This document shows, piece after piece, positions 600 through 39,894 of a stretch of DNA of 39,894 nucleotides. The notes under the pieces were generated by a model. It did no database searches. It had not been told where the DNA came from and worked only from the letters and a program-made list of their open reading frames with translations. Made by a program: the position numbers and the translations under genes. The stretch lies in IMG/VR virus record IMGVR_UViG_3300013772_000031, positions 1-39,894 of that record; one strand, given 5' to 3'. Within the stretch, counting starts at the first letter, position 1. Each line of letters starts with the position of its first letter. This DNA is from a virus.

Positions 600-1530
600 G
601 GACAATGACCCCAACAAGATGATACCTAACCCCATTATTCCCTTGCAGCCCCAATCATGTCCTCCTGAAGTTTCTCAAACTATAGGGATGGCGGATCAAA
701 TTATCCAAAATGAGTTAGGTTCATTTGATGCGGCATTAGGGATTAATAACAATCAACTGTCCGGTATTGCGATTGTTGAAGCTGCAACACAATCGCAGGC
801 GGCAGCTATGCCATACGTTGTCAACTATATGGCAGCGTTAAATCAAGCGGCGGTAATTATCCTAGACTTGATTCCAAAGTATTATAAAACGCCGATGACG
901 GTTCCCGTGATAGACAAAGAAGGTAGGCGTAGTTTTCAGCGCATCAATGATCAGCAAGATCCGAATAGCATTAGCATGGATTACGATCCTGAGTCGTTGA
1001 ACATACGTGTAACTGCTGGTGTGAACTTTGCGATACAGAAAGCTAGAGCACTGCAACAAATCATAGCTCTATGCCAAGCTTCACCAGGGTTTGCTAAGTT
1101 TATGGAAATGAAGGGGCTTAAGGTATTAGTAGACAATATTGAGATTCGCGGCGCTGATATTCTCAAGGAATTAGCTGAACAATATCTCGAAGAAGTTAAG
1201 CAACAGCAAGCGCAAATGCAGCAACAACAGCAAGCTATGATGCAAAATGATCCTAAAATGCTAGATATTAAGACTAAGCAATTTAAGGCGGTTGCTGATG
1301 CTAAACTTGAAGAGAAACAATTGCAGCTTGACGAACTCAAACTCAGACTTGATGGCGAAGTTGCGCAAGCTCAGCATGATGCGGCAATTGCAAGGGCTGA
1401 GGCTGAAGAGTTTAGGGCACAGGCAGATATACAAATTCGACGTGAAGAAATGCAGCATAAGCATGCCAAAGAAGTAGTGGAGATAGTGCATAAAGTGCAT
1501 GAGTCGCATAACAATATGGAGAAAAAGTAA
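1..1530 (+). CDS. Portal protein, C-terminal part (gene continues across the contig join)
   Basis: This is residues 193-701 of the portal whose start lies at 38720; the reading frame is open from base 1 and agrees with the copy at the right end. The portal is the dodecameric ring at the capsid vertex through which DNA enters and leaves. The inferred full length of 701 aa is close to the P22 portal (about 725 aa). The C-terminal third is charged, helical and glutamine-rich (QQQAQMQQQQQAMMQ), compatible with the P22 barrel helix. Bases 78-522 differ from the right-end copy by about 80 substitutions and roughly eight amino acids, so this is one of two alleles. The stop overlaps the next start as TAATG. 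Confidence 0.88.
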   Translation, partial: PDIDIDDIKFSGADSIGGYNWSFNTGQEDVLLICNMIKKIKKRTKIVDCADNKTRTEKEYKAFVEEWYKSGKTEQVPAIVNSRWTNLETVCQYVFIENKVLEYRVTDYNNLNIIFADGDSIDLYENGKGSVKEFNRPFVYNTKGAQQLKNLGLQALANYLESICQHKFIVMKEAIPEEAEYVRALTETQKSNVIVVNSMMDNDPNKMIPNPIIPLQPQSCPPEVSQTIGMADQIIQNELGSFDAALGINNNQLSGIAIVEAATQSQAAAMPYVVNYMAALNQAAVIILDLIPKYYKTPMTVPVIDKEGRRSFQRINDQQDPNSISMDYDPESLNIRVTAGVNFAIQKARALQQIIALCQASPGFAKFMEMKGLKVLVDNIEIRGADILKELAEQYLEEVKQQQAQMQQQQQAMMQNDPKMLDIKTKQFKAVADAKLEEKQLQLDELKLRLDGEVAQAQHDAAIARAEAEEFRAQADIQIRREEMQHKHAKEVVEIVHKVHESHNNMEKK

Positions 1531-1811
1531 TGCTAGAAGATACACTTTCATTTTCGTCAGCATTAAGATATTTAAAAGATGGGAATAAATTAGCGCGAAA
1601 AGGATGGAATGGAAAAGATATGTTTTTGTATCTAGTTCCTGGCTCAAGATTTATTGTAAATCGCGCTCCACTTAATGCTATATATCCGGAAGGTACTGAA
1701 ATTGATTATCATGCTCATATCGATATGAAAACGGCACAAGGTTATTGTGTTCCATGGCTGGCTTCTCAAGCTGATTTATTAAGTGATGACTGGGTAATAG
1801 TTAAATCATAA
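1530..1811 (+). CDS. Tad2-like Thoeris anti-defence protein (DUF2829)
   Basis: The 93-aa protein has the whole DUF2829 pattern: an N-terminal helix SALRYLKDGNKLARKGWNGKD, then MFLYLVPGSRF, then AHIDMKTAQGYCVPWLASQADLLSDDWVIV. Characterised members (Tad2) are small cytoplasmic proteins that bind cyclic-nucleotide signals such as gcADPR made by Thoeris TIR proteins, and so block abortive defence. The length is typical. The start overlaps the portal stop (TAATG), so it is probably translationally coupled inside the structural operon, an unexpected place for an early-acting anti-defence gene. Family assignment is confident by eye; ligand and activity are inferred from the family. Confidence 0.85.
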   Translation: MLEDTLSFSSALRYLKDGNKLARKGWNGKDMFLYLVPGSRFIVNRAPLNAIYPEGTEIDYHAHIDMKTAQGYCVPWLASQADLLSDDWVIVKS

Positions 1812-1821
1812 GGGGTTAATA

Positions 1822-2112
1822 ATGACAAAGGCAAAAGTAGCAAAGAAGCCTAAGACGAGTGCTAAGGCAGCACCAAAGACAGCGCCAGGGGCAAAGACTG
1901 CTACAGCTACAAAAACGGCCACTGCAACAAAGACAGCAACAGCTACTAAAACATCTACTGATGCTTATACTCAAGGCAATATCACTGTGACCGGCGGCGC
2001 AGGAAAGGGAGCTACTAGTGTGACAATCGCACTTCCCGGTGGATCACTTGCAAATAATGCAAAAAAACCAATTAAATCAAAAGAAGCTACTGGCAAGGGA
2101 GGAAAGAAATAA
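1822..2112 (+). CDS. Low-complexity Lys/Ala/Thr-rich protein
   Basis: This is a 96-aa basic protein. Residues 1-50 are almost entirely Lys, Ala, Thr and Pro, with three consecutive ATATKT-type repeats encoded by imperfect 18-base DNA repeats near 1900-1951. The C-terminal half has a glycine-rich segment (TVTGGAGKGATSVTIALPGG) and a lysine tail. No known domain was recognised. The composition suggests nucleic-acid or capsid-interior binding, but this is a guess. An AAGGGG-type ribosome binding site precedes the ATG, 10 bases after the Tad2-like gene. Confidence 0.6.
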   Translation: MTKAKVAKKPKTSAKAAPKTAPGAKTATATKTATATKTATATKTSTDAYTQGNITVTGGAGKGATSVTIALPGGSLANNAKKPIKSKEATGKGGKK

Positions 2113-2113
2113 T

Positions 2114-2227
2114 ATGAAAAAAGCTAAAGAAGAAACAAAGAAGATGGAAAAGGTAGAGAAGAAAATGGAAAAAAAAGACAAGAAGCAGGATGCTGCTATG
2201 TGTAAAAAGAGTAAAGGTAAGAAGTAA
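2114..2227 (+). CDS. 37-aa lysine-rich micro-protein
   Basis: The ORF encodes 37 aa, about half Lys/Glu in alternating clusters (KKMEKVEKKMEKKDKK), predicted as one charged helix. The chosen ATG lies two bases after the previous stop and behind GGAAAG. Its stop overlaps the next start (TAATG), which supports real translation. A longer in-frame reading from 2039 would overlap the preceding gene and is less likely. Function unknown. Confidence 0.5.
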   Translation: MKKAKEETKKMEKVEKKMEKKDKKQDAAMCKKSKGKK

Positions 2228-2529
2228 TGACAATACGTTATAACTTAGAGAAAACAGTCGTGCGCAATATATTAATTGCGATGAACTACGTTGATAATGC
2301 ATTTATGGCAATAGAGTTATGCTTAAAAGAAGAGTTTAATTTAGAAAGTGAGAGAAACGATTTGTATACTTATGGATTGACTGATGCGCACATTCATAAA
2401 GCAAAGTTATTAGGTGTGAAAAAAGCATTGAAATGTATTACTGGCAATCTTAAATATAAAGATGCGGGTAAGCATGAAAAACAAATAGAGGAAAATATTC
2501 CGCTAAACGTCTATCCCAACATTATTTAA
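2227..2529 (+). CDS. Hypothetical 100-aa protein in structural operon
   Basis: This is a soluble, mixed-charge, mainly helical protein (LEKTVVRNILIAMNYVDNAFMAIELCLKEEF...) with no motif I recognise. The start overlaps the previous stop (TAATG). It lies between the portal/Tad2 block and a putative virion surface protein, so it may be a minor morphogenesis factor; this rests on position only. Confidence 0.65.
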   Translation: MTIRYNLEKTVVRNILIAMNYVDNAFMAIELCLKEEFNLESERNDLYTYGLTDAHIHKAKLLGVKKALKCITGNLKYKDAGKHEKQIEENIPLNVYPNII

Positions 2530-2544
2530 CAAAAGGAATTTGTT

Positions 2545-3405
2545 ATGCCAATTTTACAATTAACAACAGACTTTGCAGGACAAGTAGGTATTCAACCACG
2601 TTTAGTGCGTCTATTATCCTCTGATACTTATTCAACTATTACAGCACCTGGGTATGTTAGCGGTGTGTCGGGTATGGGTGTTGTATTAGAACCTACTGAC
2701 TTTGTATTTGCATCATATGATGGCGGGTTTGGTTCATTCAATCCTGTGTTTTCCGGTTCTACTGTTACTTTAGTTGCAACACCGGTTGCTAATGAACCAA
2801 GCGCTGAGGTTATCCTTAATACCTCTGTTAATGGTCAAACCATTACCTCGCCTAATGCCTCTGCAACACCTGGGACATTACGTGCTATTCGTGGTTTAGT
2901 TACAGATTCAATTGCAGTTATAACTTCTGGAAATCTAGTTGGTGTACGTGGTGAAGCTGATATCGTTGGTGCATCTGGTGGCTTCGTATATGGTGTACAA
3001 GGCAAAGTTATTCCTACTGGTACGATCTCAGGTTCAGTATGGGTAGCTGGTGTATTTGGTCAATTCGATCTTTCCTCAGCAACTGTTACAACAGGACAAT
3101 TAGCGTGTATCTGGGGTGACATGGGTGTAACTGCAACATCTGGCACATATGCAGGCTTACGTGGTATTGCCATGACTAATACGACAGCAGCTATCTGCAA
3201 TGCACAAGTATATTTATATGGTGGTGCTACCAATTTCCTAGAATTAGTTGATAACAATGGTGTAGTAGGTGCCACTTATTTCGTAGCGGCTGGTACGTCA
3301 GGTGGTTCAGCAGGTGATGCAGCACATTGCGCAGCATCTAAAGTATTAAAAATTACGGTTAATGGGGTAGATTACTGGTTACCTTTGTTTGCATCAAATA
3401 GTTAA
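2545..3405 (+). CDS. Putative virion decoration protein
   Basis: This 286-aa protein is rich in Gly, Ala, Thr, Ser and Val with almost no long helices, and has alternating hydrophobic strands typical of beta-rich phage surface proteins (GVRGEADIVGASGGFVYGVQGKV, AGLRGIAMTNTTAAICNAQVYLYGGATNFLEL). The C-terminus is hydrophobic and aromatic (VNGVDYWLPLFAS). An AAGGAA ribosome binding site precedes the ATG. It sits upstream of scaffold and coat, where head decoration or fibre-like proteins can occur. The structural role is inferred from composition and position. Confidence 0.6.
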   Translation: MPILQLTTDFAGQVGIQPRLVRLLSSDTYSTITAPGYVSGVSGMGVVLEPTDFVFASYDGGFGSFNPVFSGSTVTLVATPVANEPSAEVILNTSVNGQTITSPNASATPGTLRAIRGLVTDSIAVITSGNLVGVRGEADIVGASGGFVYGVQGKVIPTGTISGSVWVAGVFGQFDLSSATVTTGQLACIWGDMGVTATSGTYAGLRGIAMTNTTAAICNAQVYLYGGATNFLELVDNNGVVGATYFVAAGTSGGSAGDAAHCAASKVLKITVNGVDYWLPLFASNS

Positions 3406-3417
3406 TGGAGAGTTTGA

Positions 3418-3702
3418 ATGTTAGTAGCAGATTTAACAGCTAGATTAAATGATATAAAAGCAGAAATGGATACAAATAGAACACTTGCTCAGCAACATGG
3501 GCAAGCTGTTACCCAGCTTAATGCTAATTACAATGCGCTAGAGGGTGCAAAGCAAGAGACATTAAATTGGTTGCAGAAAATTGAAGAGGCGGCGAAGGCA
3601 GTAGAAACGGTAGCGGCAGTTACGGGCCATCCTGCGGTCGCTACAATTGCTGGTGCTGTGGAATCATTGACAGAATTAGTCGATGAATTAACAGCTAAAT
3701 AA
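3418..3702 (+). CDS. Coiled-coil hypothetical protein
   Basis: The 94-aa protein begins with a heptad-like stretch (ADLTARLNDIKAEMDTNRTLAQQHGQAVTQLNANYNALEG) and ends in an Ala/Val-rich helix (VETVAAVTGHPAVATIAGAVESLTELVDEL). A GGAG ribosome binding site lies 5-8 bases before the ATG. It follows the putative decoration protein by 12 bases. Function unknown; a short structural or accessory coiled coil is plausible. Confidence 0.6.
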   Translation: MLVADLTARLNDIKAEMDTNRTLAQQHGQAVTQLNANYNALEGAKQETLNWLQKIEEAAKAVETVAAVTGHPAVATIAGAVESLTELVDELTAK

Positions 3703-4573: not shown

Positions 4574-4649
4574 GTAAAGACTAAAGGACTAGTCGTAACA
4601 TAGTAAAAGCCACTGTCTCTTGATTAATTCTGAGAGCGGAGATTTTATT

Positions 4650-5975
4650 ATGTTACCGACAAATATTTTAAAACAGGTCATCACATACAATGACTCTGGT
4701 TTAGCTTATCTAGAAAATTTAAACGTTGGCATCCATCTAGCTAACAAGAAATTCCAAAACTTCGAAAACGTTGAGAAGAACTTAGGCGATACTGTTCAAT
4801 TTGACGTCCCACCTCGTGCTATTGCAATGAATGGCTTAGTTGCATCATTCCAATCTGCACAACAAAGATTCGGTACACTTACTTGCGATCAAGCAGCTAA
4901 CTCCTCTATGGCGTTTAGTGCGCAACAATTCGTATTTAACGTACGCGACTATATGGAAAAATTCGGTATGGCACGAGTCGAAGAACTCTCTGCTAAGATC
5001 GAGAAGAGTGTATTACGCAATATCGATTCTTCAGTACCTGTCATGGTTGTAGACTCTGATGGTCAATCTGTACCAACTGGTGCATTACATACTGATTCCG
5101 GCCCATATCGCTTCTATGGAGACGGTGTTACACCTATCAATAGCTTCCAGCAATTAGCTTCTATGTTGGCCTTAAACGCTGAATATGGCATGCCTAATGG
5201 CTCACCTGAGGTTATTCTGCCTAACTTAGCAATTCCTGGCATCGTAGGTTCTGGTCTTAATCAATTCGTTAATGATCGTAACGAAATGTTAGCTAACTCT
5301 TGGGATCTTGGTACTTACAAAGGCTCTAATGCTCGCTACTATCGTTCTAATTTATTGCCAATTCATTATGCTGGTACCATTGGTAATGATGCATTAACGC
5401 TTACTGTTATTAATACTGACGATCCTACAGGCGCTAACATCAACAACATTACTTTCTCCGGTGCCAACGTTTCTGATTCTGGGTCCGCTAACTCTGGCGA
5501 TTTAGGACAGTTTGTTGATGGTGTGGCAACATTTCGCGATATGCGTTATTTGACCTGGACGGGACACGAAGAATGTGGATGTCCTGTGCAAGTACGTGTA
5601 TTAGCCTCTGCGGGTTCCGATGGTTCTGGACATATTACACTTAATATTTTCCCACCATTATCTAATGTGATTGGACCTAACCAAAATCTTAATCAAAACA
5701 TCGTTGCTGGCATGAAGTTTAAACTTTTGCCTGATCATCGATGCGGTGCGGTCATTAACGGTAAAGCGTTCTATCTTGCTATGCCTAAACTACCTGACGA
5801 AGTTCCATTCCCAACGGGTACTAAGACCAACAAATCAACTGGTGCATCGATTCGCTTGTACTACGGTACATTGTTCGGCAAGAACACTCGCGGCTTGATC
5901 AACGATGCAATTTGGGGTTCATACATGCAGCCTGAATACATCATGCGCATTGCATTCCCATTAACATTTGCATAA
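4650..5975 (+). CDS. Major coat protein (P22-type, HK97 fold)
   Basis: The protein is 441 aa from the ATG at 4650, which has GGAG about 9 bases upstream; an in-frame ATT at 4620 is not a likely start. Length matches P22 coat (430 aa). It follows scaffold, and its N-terminal part (SGLAYLENLNVGIHLANKKFQNFENVEKNLGDTVQFDVPPR) resembles the arm of P22-like coats. A Gly/Asn/Asp-rich middle (about residues 245-340) may be the inserted domain. The C-terminal region (FGKNTRGLINDAIWGSYMQPEYIMRIAFP) is hydrophobic and ordered. Codons are cleaner than in surrounding genes, compatible with high expression. Confidence 0.85.
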   Translation: MLPTNILKQVITYNDSGLAYLENLNVGIHLANKKFQNFENVEKNLGDTVQFDVPPRAIAMNGLVASFQSAQQRFGTLTCDQAANSSMAFSAQQFVFNVRDYMEKFGMARVEELSAKIEKSVLRNIDSSVPVMVVDSDGQSVPTGALHTDSGPYRFYGDGVTPINSFQQLASMLALNAEYGMPNGSPEVILPNLAIPGIVGSGLNQFVNDRNEMLANSWDLGTYKGSNARYYRSNLLPIHYAGTIGNDALTLTVINTDDPTGANINNITFSGANVSDSGSANSGDLGQFVDGVATFRDMRYLTWTGHEECGCPVQVRVLASAGSDGSGHITLNIFPPLSNVIGPNQNLNQNIVAGMKFKLLPDHRCGAVINGKAFYLAMPKLPDEVPFPTGTKTNKSTGASIRLYYGTLFGKNTRGLINDAIWGSYMQPEYIMRIAFPLTFA

Positions 5976-20702: not shown

Positions 20703-21719
20703 ATGATAGATAAAATATCTAAAAATAATAAGGCTAAAGGTGGGATTGCTAGAGCTTTATCCTTAACTAAAGATGAAAGAATAGAAATAGCTAAAAAAGC
20801 TGCAGAAACAAGATGGAATCCTGATATTTTAAAAGCAACTCATTCCGGAAACTTAATAATTGGAAAAATGAATTTCCCTTGTTCCGTACTATCTGACGGA
20901 ACACGTATATTAACACAAAGTAATTTCATGATCGGAATGGGAATGTATTACAGCGGATGGATTGCAAAAAATAAAAGCAAAGAACAGTCTGCTGCAGATA
21001 TACCACATTTTTTAGCATTTAAATCAATAACTCCTTTTATAAACAAACACTTAGGTGACCTGCAGTTTATTACCGTGAAATATCGAACTGAAAAAGGGAG
21101 TTTAGCTCATGGGATTAAGGCAGAAATTATTCCCAAAATTTGTGAAATCTGGTTAGATGCAGATGAAAATATCAAATTAGGTAAAAGGCAGAAAAAAATC
21201 GCACAAAATGCAAAAGTTTTAATGCGTGCTTTAGCTTATATCGGAATTGTTGCTTTAGTAGATGAAGTAACAGGATATCAAGAAATAAGAGATAAAGAGG
21301 CGCTTCAAAAAATATTAGATAAATATTTAACCGATGAATGGGCTAGTTGGAGTAAGACATTCCCAGAAACTTTTTATAAGGAATTATTTCGTTTAAAAGA
21401 TATAAAATATCCCATAGGAAATGGAAAAAATAGACCGAGTTATGTTGGGCATTGGACAAATGAAATTGTATATAAAAGATTGGCACCAGGTATTCTTTCT
21501 GAATTAAGAGAAAAAAATCCAAGTAGTTCGAATGGTATTAGACCAAAAAGACATCATCAATATCTTAGTAGAGATTATGGACATCCTAAGCTTAAAGAAC
21601 ATTTGTCTAATATCATTTTTTTAATGAAAACTTGCTCAAATTTTGAAGAATTTAAAATCAGATTAGATTTAGCGGTTCCAAAATATGGAAATAGTCTTTC
21701 ATTAAAATTAGAAAATTAA
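20703..21719 (+). CDS. P63C-domain protein
   Basis: This 338-aa protein carries a full P63C domain in its C-terminal part, including ALVDEVTGYQEIRDKEALQKILDKYL, WSKTFPETFYKELFRL, the GHWTNEIVYKRLAPGILSELREKNP segment and HHQYLSRDYGHPKLKEHLSNIIFLMK. The N-terminus is a basic helix (KDERIEIAKKAAETRW) and a segment (GNLIIGKMNFPCSVLSDGTRILTQ) typical of these proteins. The family is common in phages and mobile elements; its function is not established, and regulatory roles are suspected. The gene stands alone between two 25-bp repeats with its own operator-like leader, like a mobile or moron cassette. The AGGA site is 10 bases from the ATG. Confidence 0.85.
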   Translation: MIDKISKNNKAKGGIARALSLTKDERIEIAKKAAETRWNPDILKATHSGNLIIGKMNFPCSVLSDGTRILTQSNFMIGMGMYYSGWIAKNKSKEQSAADIPHFLAFKSITPFINKHLGDLQFITVKYRTEKGSLAHGIKAEIIPKICEIWLDADENIKLGKRQKKIAQNAKVLMRALAYIGIVALVDEVTGYQEIRDKEALQKILDKYLTDEWASWSKTFPETFYKELFRLKDIKYPIGNGKNRPSYVGHWTNEIVYKRLAPGILSELREKNPSSSNGIRPKRHHQYLSRDYGHPKLKEHLSNIIFLMKTCSNFEEFKIRLDLAVPKYGNSLSLKLEN

Positions 21720-33999: not shown

Positions 34000-34094
34000 A
34001 CGCTACTCCAAGATTGACTATTTCCATTCCAATGCACCTCTATATAATCGTCTAAATCTGATTCATGAATAAGGGAAAAATTATCTTCATCCAT
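33996..34094 (-). CDS. 32-aa acidic micro-protein
   Basis: MDEDNFSLIHESDLDDYIEVHWNGNSQSWSSV starts on TAATG with the J-domain gene's stop and ends overlapping the next ATG. The coupling on both sides is the main support. Confidence 0.45.
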   Translation of the reverse strand: MDEDNFSLIHESDLDDYIEVHWNGNSQSWSSV

Positions 34095-34594
34095 TATGCG
34101 CTCAACCTCTCATATGTTTTTGATTTAACGTTTACACTGCCATGCCGCGCGCGTATATCATCTATCGAATACTTGCCGCGAGACTTGCTTTTATAATCCG
34201 ATGGACGCCAGTGCCACATTAGCTTTTTAGGTGCCCAGCGATACCCGGCCGCTTTGATTATGTCTTTGTGTGGCTTAGTATCGCCGCTAACCCATATCCA
34301 AGTGCCGCAAATCTCTATTGTTAAGCCTAGGTTGATTATAGCGTTCAATGCCGCGCTTAGCTCTTCTCCGAGATTGTCTAGTGTCGATTCTTCTTCTATT
34401 GGTGTAGTTGGGTAGTCATAGTCACTCAGTGCTGTGTATGCTGCGTTAATAATTTTCATCATCTCCAAGCCCGCTGGGTTGCGGTCAGGGTGGTAGTGAC
34501 TTGTAGCCTTGCGGTACGCTTGCTTTATTTCTGCAAATGTTACAGACCTTGCTAAGCCTAATACGCTGAGTGCGTCTTTGTGTGAGAGTTTCAT
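34094..34594 (-). CDS. J-domain protein with phage-specific C-terminal domain
   Basis: The 166-aa protein has a DnaJ domain at residues 6-60 (DALSVLGLARSVTFAEIKQAYRKATSHYHPDRNPAG) with the essential HPD at 35-37. It then carries a second domain (TIEICGTWIWVSGDTKPHKDIIKAAGYRWAPKKLMWHWRPSDYKSKSRGKYSIDDIRARHG) often found C-terminal to phage J domains and possibly nucleic-acid binding. It would recruit host DnaK to replication or virion-assembly complexes. No Gly/Phe or zinc region of true DnaJ is present. Confidence 0.82.
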   Translation of the reverse strand: MKLSHKDALSVLGLARSVTFAEIKQAYRKATSHYHPDRNPAGLEMMKIINAAYTALSDYDYPTTPIEEESTLDNLGEELSAALNAIINLGLTIEICGTWIWVSGDTKPHKDIIKAAGYRWAPKKLMWHWRPSDYKSKSRGKYSIDDIRARHGSVNVKSKTYERLSA

Positions 34595-37077: not shown

Positions 37078-37210
37078 TACACAAGAACGTGTGAAAGCTA
37101 TGTATCGCAAAGCTTATATAGATATGATGTGTTTTGGTAAAGGTGAAATTAATTTGGAAGCGCTGAATGGATTCACGCGAGAGACAGATAAGACAAAAGC
37201 TCAAGGATGA
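37037..37210 (+). CDS. 57-aa protein with terminase-like N-terminus
   Basis: The product begins MDSIEKEIRKKLSD, like the large terminase start MDSRERQIRQKLKDD, and ends EALNGFTRETDKTKAQG, like the preceding gene's end. It overlaps both neighbours by about 41-44 bases. It appears to result from duplication of an overlapping stop/start junction. Function unknown. Confidence 0.5.
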   Translation: MDSIEKEIRKKLSDTQERVKAMYRKAYIDMMCFGKGEINLEALNGFTRETDKTKAQG

Positions 37211-38723
37211 CTTCGAGCATTACGCTAGCAAGTGTCTAAAGATACGCACTAAGTCTGGCGCAGTATTGCCATTCTTGTTTAACTCAGCACAACATCACGT
37301 ACATAAAATAGTTGAGCACCAAAAGTTAGTTACAGGAAAAGTGCGAGTACTAGCGCTGAAAGGCCGTCAGCAAGGTCTATCCACGTATGTTGAGGGACGA
37401 TTTTATTGGCTTGTTACGCATCGTAAAGGTGTGCGCGCATTTATCCTGACGCACCTTGGTGAAGCGACACACAATCTATTCGAAATGGCGCAACGCTATC
37501 ATCAATACTGTCCCAATCTTGTTAAGCCTGACGCATCTAATAGTAGTGCTAGAGAGTTATTCTTCGGTGGACTAGATTCCGGTTACAAAGTTGGTACAGC
37601 GGGTAATCCTGGCGTTGGTCGTTCGTCAACTATTCAGTATTTACATGGCAGTGAAGTTGCATATTGGGAGAATGCACCTGAGCACGCCAAAGGTATTATT
37701 CAAGCGGTGCCAAGCGACAAAGGTACTGAGATATTCCTAGAATCCACAGCGAACGGAATAGGTAATTATTTCTGCGAACAATGGCAGTTAGCGGAAGCTG
37801 GGCAATCTGATTACATACCCATCTTTGTTCCTTGGTTCTGGCAAGATGAATATAAGAGATCAATTGAAGAAGCATTCAGACCTGGCGAGGAAGAGATAGA
37901 GTTAATCAAGCTATATAGTCTCTCCCCACAGCAACTAATGTGGAGACGGTACAAGATTCAAGAGTTATCTGTAGCTGGGGGAGATGGAAAACATGCATTT
38001 AGGTCTGAGTACCCCAATAACGCAGTAGAGGCATTTTCGTTATCTGGCGATGATACGCTGATACATCCCGACCTAGTGATGCACGCACGTAAGAACGATA
38101 AAGTTGAAGGCATTGGTCAGCTAATCGTTGGGTGCGATCCTGCTAGATTCGGAGGTGATAGAACGTCTATCATCTATCGTCGTGGTAGAAAAGCATCTAA
38201 TCTGCGGAGTTATGAAGGCAAGTCGACAATGGAAGTTGCAGGCATTCTGGACAAGATTATACGTACCGATCATCCGGATAAAGTATGTGTAGACGTTGGT
38301 GGATTGGGCGCTGGTGTGGTAGACAGATTATGGGAACTTGGGCATAAAGATATAGTGCTAGATATTAACTCTGGTTCCTCACCCCTAGATGGTGATCTCT
38401 ATTTTATAAAGAGGGATGAAATGTGGGGGCTATGTAAACAATGGCTAGAGATGAAGCCCGTGTCTATACCTGATTCTGACTCACTACATGCTGACTTATG
38501 TGCACCACGATATGATTTTGATTCGCTTAACAGATTACGGGTTGAGACCAAGAAATCCATGAAGAAGAGAGGATTGCGTTCGCCGGACGAAAGTGACGCA
38601 TTGTGCCTGACATTCGCTATGCCTTTCGCCACTATACAAACGCATAATAATAAGTCAAAATCTAAAGCATCGGAATTCGGTGCAGCTAATATGCGTCGTC
38701 AACAGTTAAGGGAAGGCAGATGA
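37167..38723 (+). CDS. Terminase large subunit (ATPase and nuclease)
   Basis: The 518-aa packaging motor has a deviant Walker A KGRQQGLST (65-73), Walker B with catalytic Glu YLHGSEVAYW (158-167, E163), coupling motif LESTANG (191-197) and the RNase H-like nuclease triad D324 (IVGCDPARFGGD), D376 (VCVDVGGLGAG) and D477 (SDALCLTFA). Length is near P22 gp2 (499 aa). It cuts and pumps DNA into procapsids at the portal. It starts at the ATG within the end of the 57-aa gene, and its stop overlaps the portal ATG (ATGA). Confidence 0.95.
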   Translation: MDSRERQIRQKLKDDFEHYASKCLKIRTKSGAVLPFLFNSAQHHVHKIVEHQKLVTGKVRVLALKGRQQGLSTYVEGRFYWLVTHRKGVRAFILTHLGEATHNLFEMAQRYHQYCPNLVKPDASNSSARELFFGGLDSGYKVGTAGNPGVGRSSTIQYLHGSEVAYWENAPEHAKGIIQAVPSDKGTEIFLESTANGIGNYFCEQWQLAEAGQSDYIPIFVPWFWQDEYKRSIEEAFRPGEEEIELIKLYSLSPQQLMWRRYKIQELSVAGGDGKHAFRSEYPNNAVEAFSLSGDDTLIHPDLVMHARKNDKVEGIGQLIVGCDPARFGGDRTSIIYRRGRKASNLRSYEGKSTMEVAGILDKIIRTDHPDKVCVDVGGLGAGVVDRLWELGHKDIVLDINSGSSPLDGDLYFIKRDEMWGLCKQWLEMKPVSIPDSDSLHADLCAPRYDFDSLNRLRVETKKSMKKRGLRSPDESDALCLTFAMPFATIQTHNNKSKSKASEFGAANMRRQQLREGR

Positions 38724-39894
38724 TTCCAGGGAAGAAGATCCAGGACGAATTGGAAGGGCTGAAGAAGCTCGTGCAACATACTAATGACTTCTCTAGGCAT
38801 AACTACGAGCGCTTCAATGAATTCCGTAAGTTTGTTTTTGAAACGTCTGTCTCTCAGGCTGAGATAGATATAAACCAAGACATAGGTCGTCCAAACATAG
38901 AAGCCAATGTCACCACAGCATATATATCTAGACTGTGTGGTGAGTTTAGCAAACAGGAGCCCAGCATTGAAGTAGCTGCGGAATATGGTGCTCAGATTGA
39001 TCCTCGCGTTGTGCTATTCATAGAAAATCATACTCGTCATATCCTCGATGAAGCTAAAAAATCTAATACGCAATATCATACTTACCGTGACTCACTCTCC
39101 GGGGGCTTTGGTGTGATGAAAGTCTTTACTGACTATTCATCACCAAAGTCATTTAAACATTGCATCAAGCTGCGCAAAGCTAAGTATCCAACGCTGTGTG
39201 GATTCGATCCTTACAGTGTTGAATCGCACAAAGGCGATGGCTCATATGCATTTGAGATATACCCAAAGACCAAGAAAGATTTTGTGCAAGAATATCCCGA
39301 TATAGACATAGATGATATTAAGTTTTCCGGCGCTGATAGCATTGGCGGCTACAATTGGAGTTTTAACACTGGGCAAGAAGATGTTTTATTAATATGCAAC
39401 ATGGTTAAGAAACGTAAGAAGCGTACTAAGATTGTTGATTGCGCTGATAATAAAACTAGGACTGAAAAAGAATATAAAACATTTGTTGAAGAATGGTACA
39501 AAAGTGGCAGGACGGAGCAAGTACCTGCGGTGACTAATAGTCGTTGGACTAATCTTGAGACTGTTTGCCAGTATGTATTTATCGAAAACAAGGTGCTGGA
39601 ATACCGTGAAACCGATTACAACAATCTCAATATTATTTTTGCTGACGGTGATTCAATTGACTTATATGAAAATGGGAAGGGATCAGTTAAAGAGTTTAAC
39701 CGACCATTTGTCTATAACACTAAAGGCGCTCAGCAATTAAAGAATCTTGGCCTGCAAGCTTTGGCAAACTATCTTGAATCTATATGTCAGCATAAATTCG
39801 TTGTAATGAAGGAAGCAATACCAGAGGAAGCGGAATATGTACGTGCTCTGACGGAGACACAAAAGAGCAATGTTATTGTCGTCAATAGTATGAT
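38720..39894 (+). CDS. Portal protein, N-terminal part (P22 gp1-like)
   Basis: The ATG overlaps the terminase stop. The frame stays open to the end of the window and continues at base 600 of the left side, giving 701 aa in total. The N-terminal region (MIPGKKIQDELEGLKKLVQHTNDFSRHNYERFNEFRKFVFE, then RPNIEANVTTAYISRLCGEFSKQEPSIEVAAE) and the motif LSGGFGVMKVFTDY fit P22-like portals. The last 599 bases duplicate bases 1-599 as a second allele; amino-acid differences there are mild (I/V, K/R, A/T, plus V/E and I/R). Confidence 0.9.
   Translation, partial: MIPGKKIQDELEGLKKLVQHTNDFSRHNYERFNEFRKFVFETSVSQAEIDINQDIGRPNIEANVTTAYISRLCGEFSKQEPSIEVAAEYGAQIDPRVVLFIENHTRHILDEAKKSNTQYHTYRDSLSGGFGVMKVFTDYSSPKSFKHCIKLRKAKYPTLCGFDPYSVESHKGDGSYAFEIYPKTKKDFVQEYPDIDIDDIKFSGADSIGGYNWSFNTGQEDVLLICNMVKKRKKRTKIVDCADNKTRTEKEYKTFVEEWYKSGRTEQVPAVTNSRWTNLETVCQYVFIENKVLEYRETDYNNLNIIFADGDSIDLYENGKGSVKEFNRPFVYNTKGAQQLKNLGLQALANYLESICQHKFVVMKEAIPEEAEYVRALTETQKSNVIVVNSM
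39296..39894 (+). repeat. Right copy of the 599-bp end overlap (allele B)
   Basis: It is gap-free against 1-599, identical over the first 77 and last 77 bases, with about 80 substitutions between. It implies a unit genome of 39,295 bp. Confidence 0.93.

Follow-up and report, generated by a model that had tools for sequence, protein, structure and literature searches.

The window examined here, the whole of a 39,894-base phage record (38% G+C), carries a short gene of the Tad2 anti-defence family directly behind a P22-type portal gene, and the question it raises is what a Thoeris inhibitor would do, and when it would be made, within a block of head genes. The reading that we favour, with a probability of about three in four, is that the protein would be a sponge for an ADP-ribose-type Thoeris messenger, encoded by an accessory gene for which translation off the late mRNA of the head genes is probable.

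The 93-residue product matches the Pfam Tad2-like profile PF11195 at 86.3 bits (cut-off 25; E = 2.1e-24) over positions 2 to 73 of 73. The only PDB sequences matched below 0.001 are Tad2/AcrIIA7 proteins, with E-values of 7e-17 for ModTad2, 1e-14 for the 8kbi protein, 7e-14 for AcrIIA7 (9kzr), 5e-12 for SptTad2, and 6e-11 for SPO1 gp34.65. An AlphaFold2 model, built as a monomer on 64 related sequences, has a mean pLDDT of 91.7, and a Foldseek search with it gave 24 matches at E ≤ 0.001, every one a Tad2 or AcrIIA7 entry. In VIA-align, ten Tad2/AcrIIA7 entries lie at Z 10.5 to 12.2, including ModTad2 with His-ADPR (12.2), SptTad2 with cGG (11.9), HgmTad2 (11.8), and SPO1 Tad2 with gcADPR (11.3), and the next row drops to 5.7. 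That row, the best match outside the family, is the neck protein of phage 812 (PDB 8qkh, chain s; 70 residues, 20% identity), a likeness too weak to claim kinship. When the 93-residue protein is aligned with five solved relatives, 18 residues are common to all six sequences. Membership of the Tad2 family is therefore firm, in fold as well as in core motifs, as the sequence-only reading had proposed. That reading would have been given up for want of a structural match to Tad2 or on loss of all pocket residues; both were checked, and the match was found, as were conserved residues in the putative pocket elements.

Matches to Tad2 occur in 390 of 50,697 phage records, and 144 of 155 stretches retrieved by pattern from IMG/VR encode a relative, so the ORF is more than a product of chance. 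Eighty relatives were retained, and 63 of these were aligned with the 93-residue protein, the 17 others, many of them apparent near copies, being omitted by eye. The 63 are 61% to 81% identical to it, with 24 invariant columns and a consensus near PEGTEIxYHAHIDMKTAQGYVVPWLASQ; as the relatives were found by close similarity, the subfamily is partly tight by construction. The protein had been described as a diverged homologue, a label that does not suit a protein so typical of its tight subfamily. No solved structure from this subfamily is among the PDB matches. Against the relative in L002 (81% amino acid identity), synonymous sites of the gene are saturated at a non-synonymous proportion of 0.15, a pattern as expected for a gene under purifying selection. 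In two loci (L004, 5839-6276, and L029, 5782-6285) the Tad2 domain is preceded by ~55 to 75 extra N-terminal residues, which contain a DGY.SW.PK-like motif in the former and a GYISWSPK stretch in the latter.

The features of the locus are collected in Table 1. The ORF opens with ATG and abuts the portal gene through the TAATG that had been described. The frame at 1-1527 matches PF16510 (P22_portal) at 154.2 bits (cut-off 26.1; E = 6.5e-45). The remainder of the portal gene lies at the other end of the record. There, 39296-39894 repeats the portal segment of 1-599 as another allele (191 of 199 amino acids identical, with 77 exact bases at each end). The best interpretation is a circular assembly that contains a strain bubble and has a unique length of ~39,295 bases, and not a true duplication. 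The terminase ORF gave no Pfam match at 0.001; it is 53% to 68% identical over 509 to 521 amino acids to portal-upstream stretches in L090, L092, and L098 and resembles the PHROG 2 terminase ORF of L050. The order terminase, P22-type portal, scaffold, coat is thus present, the scaffold being named by position only (no PHROG match below 0.01), and the placement proposed for the Tad2 gene, immediately after a P22-type portal gene in the head-gene block, holds on PF16510, PHROG 156, and gene order. The coat protein is 80% to 82% identical in L096 to L098; a search of genome contigs for a host through exact peptide patterns of this protein, which reaches close relatives only, found none. Pfam found no family for ten late proteins, and an NCBIfam search of ten proteins from the record assigned none. 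Elsewhere in the window are a phage-encoded DnaJ-domain protein (34094-34594; PF00226, 2e-12) and a P63C-domain protein (20703-21719; PF10546, 2e-30).

Table 1. Features of the Tad2 locus and the head-gene block (positions in the window)
Feature	Position	Strand	Basis or remark
P22-type portal, C-terminal 509 codons	1..1530	+	PF16510, PHROG 156
GGAG, Shine-Dalgarno-like, within the portal gene	1518..1521	+	Sequence; 8 bases 5' of the Tad2 ATG
TAATG junction	1528..1532	+	Sequence; portal stop (TAA, 1528-1530) and Tad2 start (ATG, from 1530) have one base in common
Tad2-family protein (PF11195, former DUF2829), 93 aa	1530..1811	+	Profile, structure model, fold match
Remaining variable portal-scaffold slot	1822..3702	+	ORFs 1822-2112, 2227-2529, 2545-3405, 3418-3702
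Scaffold-like ORF (named by position), 242 aa	3845..4573	+	Precedes coat; resembles sister ORF in the same place
Major head (coat) protein	4620..5975	+	PHROG 283, 1.6e-5
Terminase large subunit	37167..38723	+	Similarity to sister stretches and to the L050 terminase ORF
Same portal gene, N-terminal 192 codons	38720..39295	+	Gene spans the record ends

Whether the gene belongs to the head itself was judged from 19 sister loci, six found by portal search and 13 by coat search, of which 17 span the region from the portal end to the coat gene; near copies are included (L100, L101, and L102 have the same ORFs). None of the 17 carries Tad2 in this stretch (tblastn, E ≤ 1e-3), and the three closest sisters (coat 80% to 82%) are without it. 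Across the whole sister records, one of 19 has a marginal match elsewhere (E 0.00123, 38 residues, with an internal stop). The slot between the portal stop and the scaffold ORF varies from ~150 bases (L092) to ~4.2 kb (L104) and measures 2.3 kb here. Together with the difference in G+C (34.8% in the Tad2 gene vs 40.8% in the portal stretch), these observations identify Tad2 as an accessory insert in a variable slot, outside the head itself. In the window the other slot ORFs have no Pfam family above cut-off, and the first of them, directly downstream of Tad2, is rich in Lys, Thr, and Ala. Several sisters have short Lys-rich ORFs in the slot, some overlapping the portal stop (starts were set mechanically), and L090 and L095 to L098 share a recurring short Lys-rich family with a motif, read by eye, of about LHxxLGxPxGxKIPxKKLxKAAxSKSxKVRK. 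The slot of L104 (3000-7169), with 16 small ORFs listed, is a candidate accessory island.

The gene would be translated off the late head mRNA through the GGAG that precedes it, in combination with coupling to the stop of the portal gene. A promoter scan of 6 kb for the separate start suggested earlier found a + strand sigma-70-like site at 149-178 and none on that strand at 179-2245; as the scan gave only 12 sites against a mean of 17.2 in shuffled sequence, it says little about transcription around the Tad2 gene.

As to the ligand, a review describes the gcADPR pocket as lined by loop b1-b2, loop b4-a3, and helix a3 (PMC12043709). By our own mapping on the AlphaFold2 model, residues G25 to K29, W76, S79, and D82 fall in the elements so described, and all of them are among the 18 common residues. 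The b1-b2 segments are identical to the solved relatives at 6 to 7 of 8 positions. The middle of the domain separates the solved proteins by length: the spacer from the MF pair to the K67 column has 34 residues here and 32 in SPO1 Tad2 and ModTad2, against 43 for SptTad2 and 49 for both AcrIIA7 and the 8kbi protein. The long insertion that marks dinucleotide-binding Tad2 proteins is thus absent from this protein. Of the solved relatives, ModTad2 from a Myroides odoratus prophage (9eib, 8v3e) is alike in fold (rmsd 2.7 over 87 residues), identity (40%), and short insertion, and differs in the sequence of that insertion; it binds His-ADPR, as stated in PMC13299392 and in the PDB title. SPO1 Tad2 (8sme to 8smg) shares the fold, 36% identity, the short insertion, and the WNGK and SQxDxLxxDW motifs. 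HgmTad2/AcrIIA7 (8kbi and following, 9kzr) and SptTad2 (8wjd) share the fold and core motifs, whereas their insertion is 9 to 15 residues longer and their complexes with cGG have been solved, according to the PDB titles.

The same review ascribes dinucleotide binding to the long insertion (PMC12043709), and SPO1 Tad2 is described as not binding 3'3'-cGAMP (PMC11722364). Since the insertion is short as in SPO1 Tad2 and ModTad2, we predict an ADP-ribose-type ligand over cyclic dinucleotides, and the earlier suggestion of a different signal, if taken to mean a dinucleotide, becomes less likely. The subfamily insertion (PEGTEIxYHAHIDMK) is conserved and differs from all those in solved structures, which makes a pocket peculiar to this subfamily possible. 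Tad2 relatives vary in ligand, and the function of the 93-residue protein is assigned by homology only.

The alternative that the protein would be a sponge for cyclic dinucleotides, acting against CBASS or TIR-STING systems instead of or besides taking up ADP-ribose signals, as with HgmTad2 and SptTad2, meets the same evidence from the other side. Its highest pairwise identity to a solved protein (44% to 45%) is to the 8kbi/AcrIIA7 type, and its Z to the SptTad2-cGG complex is tied with the best. Residues 70 to 88, which contain the last pocket elements, are identical at 10 to 11 of 19 positions to the 8kbi/AcrIIA7 proteins and SptTad2, compared with 7 of 19 to SPO1 Tad2 and 6 of 19 to ModTad2, and this closer match to long-insertion proteins calls for caution in extrapolating from SPO1. 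Against these likenesses stand the short insertion and the lack of 3'3'-cGAMP binding by the similarly short SPO1 protein, and we consider a dinucleotide sponge unlikely. An anti-CRISPR role is suggested by the kinship with AcrIIA7, a member of the same family that came from a screen for Cas9 inhibition, in which acrIIA7-10 derive from 11 fragments confirmed on re-testing, as given in PMC6739867; however, the AcrIIA7 and HgmTad2 structures contain cADPR and cGG according to their PDB titles, which points to nucleotide sequestration, and we give this role hardly any credence. It could also be supposed that Tad2 is packed into virions and enters the cell along with the DNA, in which case its late synthesis would serve the next infection. 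Its place among the head genes would suit such a role, as would the Tad2 gene of Pectobacterium phage Momine, which has a long ORF on either side and tail-fibre genes beyond these; yet the sisters' slots lack Tad2, so it is not required in this head, and a sponge would presumably need abundance where virion doses are small. We regard packaging as very improbable. The reading as a sponge for an ADP-ribose-type messenger, made late in the infected cell, is the one carried forward.

The sequence-only reading implied that a late position is rare for such a gene, which is not what other phages show, as several carry Tad2 within or beside late genes. Among the 80 related loci, at least three have Tad2 after a portal gene: in L004 and L066 it follows a P22-type portal directly (28 and 14 bases past the stop), and in L031 it starts 24 bases past a portal of another type (PHROG 12082). 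P22-type portals above cut-off occur in eight of the 80 records (3 of 40 and 5 of 40). In a scan of ten large flanking ORFs picked by eye, the gene directly before Tad2 encodes a head-tail adaptor in L012, a head-closure protein in L022, and a terminase in L048; a terminase follows Tad2 in L050, and the flanking genes outside the head class are primase-like in L029, SbcC-like in L044, and of no family in L063. The nearest relative, L002, has Tad2 one gene ahead of a terminase pair.

Nineteen annotated phage records, selected by eye out of lists of best and of spread matches, give a similar picture. Four have Tad2 within structural or packaging genes, namely Momine, the cultured Klebsiella phages PWKp9B and NKA196 (major capsid on one side of the gene, tail tubular A on the other), and Pseudomonas phage Skulduggery (between terminase and portal). 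Five more (Kapi1, Pm86, Vibrio 1.127.O, Vibrio 66E30.1, and Latilactobacillus TMW 1.2272 P1) have it on the same strand as lysis, terminase, or capsid genes and within ~3 kb of them. The gene in the other ten has replication genes nearby, is surrounded by unnamed genes, or, in K57alpha1.2, lies opposite a broken terminase annotation. The Klebsiella Drulisviruses resemble the present phage in having the gene within a structural operon, and differ in being T7-like, in the neighbouring gene, and in a Tad2 that falls outside this subfamily on a quick tree. Kapi1, a Lederbergvirus (P22 genus), carries its gene in the late half as well, with lysis genes on one side and terminase on the other instead of following the portal. 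The Sinorhizobium podovirus AP-20-A likewise encodes a Tad2-like protein, p015, a few genes from the tail, portal, and neck genes p018 to p021, although its closest relative is ModTad2 (50.5%), as reported in PMC13299392. SPO1 and others keep their Tad2 genes away from named structural genes; in SPO1, viewed over 90-132.6 kb, the gene sits in a run of small unnamed ones. In the portions of the literature available to us we found no discussion of Tad2 inside structural operons.

Closeness to the terminase was also counted. With all terminase matches included, Tad2 lies within 3 kb of one on the same strand in 16 of 35 records vs 10.6 expected (14 vs 10.5 when only the first match per record counts), and in 12 of 30 vs 7.2 after removal of five near copies picked by eye. 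For records of at least 15 kb the figures are 9 of 25 vs 4.4, and 7 of 23 vs 4.1 without the weak matches L032 and L046. These expectations assume uniform placement and ignore strand, and would halve were strand random; the terminase profile also misses some genes, as in L002, which has a PHROG 9 terminase and no PHROG 2 match. On a quick tree (89 columns, 39 of 76 inner branches open), the label for a head or packaging gene directly beside Tad2 falls on 11 scattered rows with 9 changes; the label rests on the ten scanned flanking proteins, so that more rows may deserve it, and the scatter is weakly consistent with repeated insertion of Tad2. Late placement is real and recurrent, and closeness to terminase is favoured mildly at most.

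We can then outline how the protein would work. By homology, the sponge would assemble as a tetramer and bind the ADP-ribose-type messenger (gcADPR or His-ADPR) made by the TIR protein of Thoeris; with the messenger bound, the effector would stay off and the cell would not abort the infection. Made together with the head genes, the sponge would arrive together with the trigger, because capsid or portal protein can trigger TIR sensors. In Staphylococcus and Streptococcus, the major capsid protein activates Thoeris (PMC12578639), and for the TIR NADase SpbK a portal protein is the trigger (PMC11984713). Co-production of sponge and trigger is plausible, and a sponge, which acts on the messenger after the sensor, may manage with a shorter lead than a sensor inhibitor. 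Against this view of the timing, the counter-defence gene nip, directed against SpbK, is an early gene whose expression precedes that of the portal, a lead that in its authors' view likely gives it the time required (PMC11984713), the closeness to terminase is mild at best, and some Tad2 genes lie away from structural genes. It is a tentative idea, and one that we think doubtful, that phages repeatedly set the sponge beside portal or capsid genes as a trigger-coupled counter-defence and that the subfamily insertion may hold a signal not seen before.

With this protein the family gains a further Tad2, which belongs to an environmental subfamily; the gene is ordinary and its family known, and its location among head genes is less usual and is met again in unrelated phages. 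If the trigger-coupled idea were true, the sponge would be made with, and in proportion to, the head protein that TIR sensors detect. Phages in which Tad2 adjoins the portal gene, or separates capsid from tail genes, make it possible to test directly whether a sponge suffices when it is made no earlier than its trigger.
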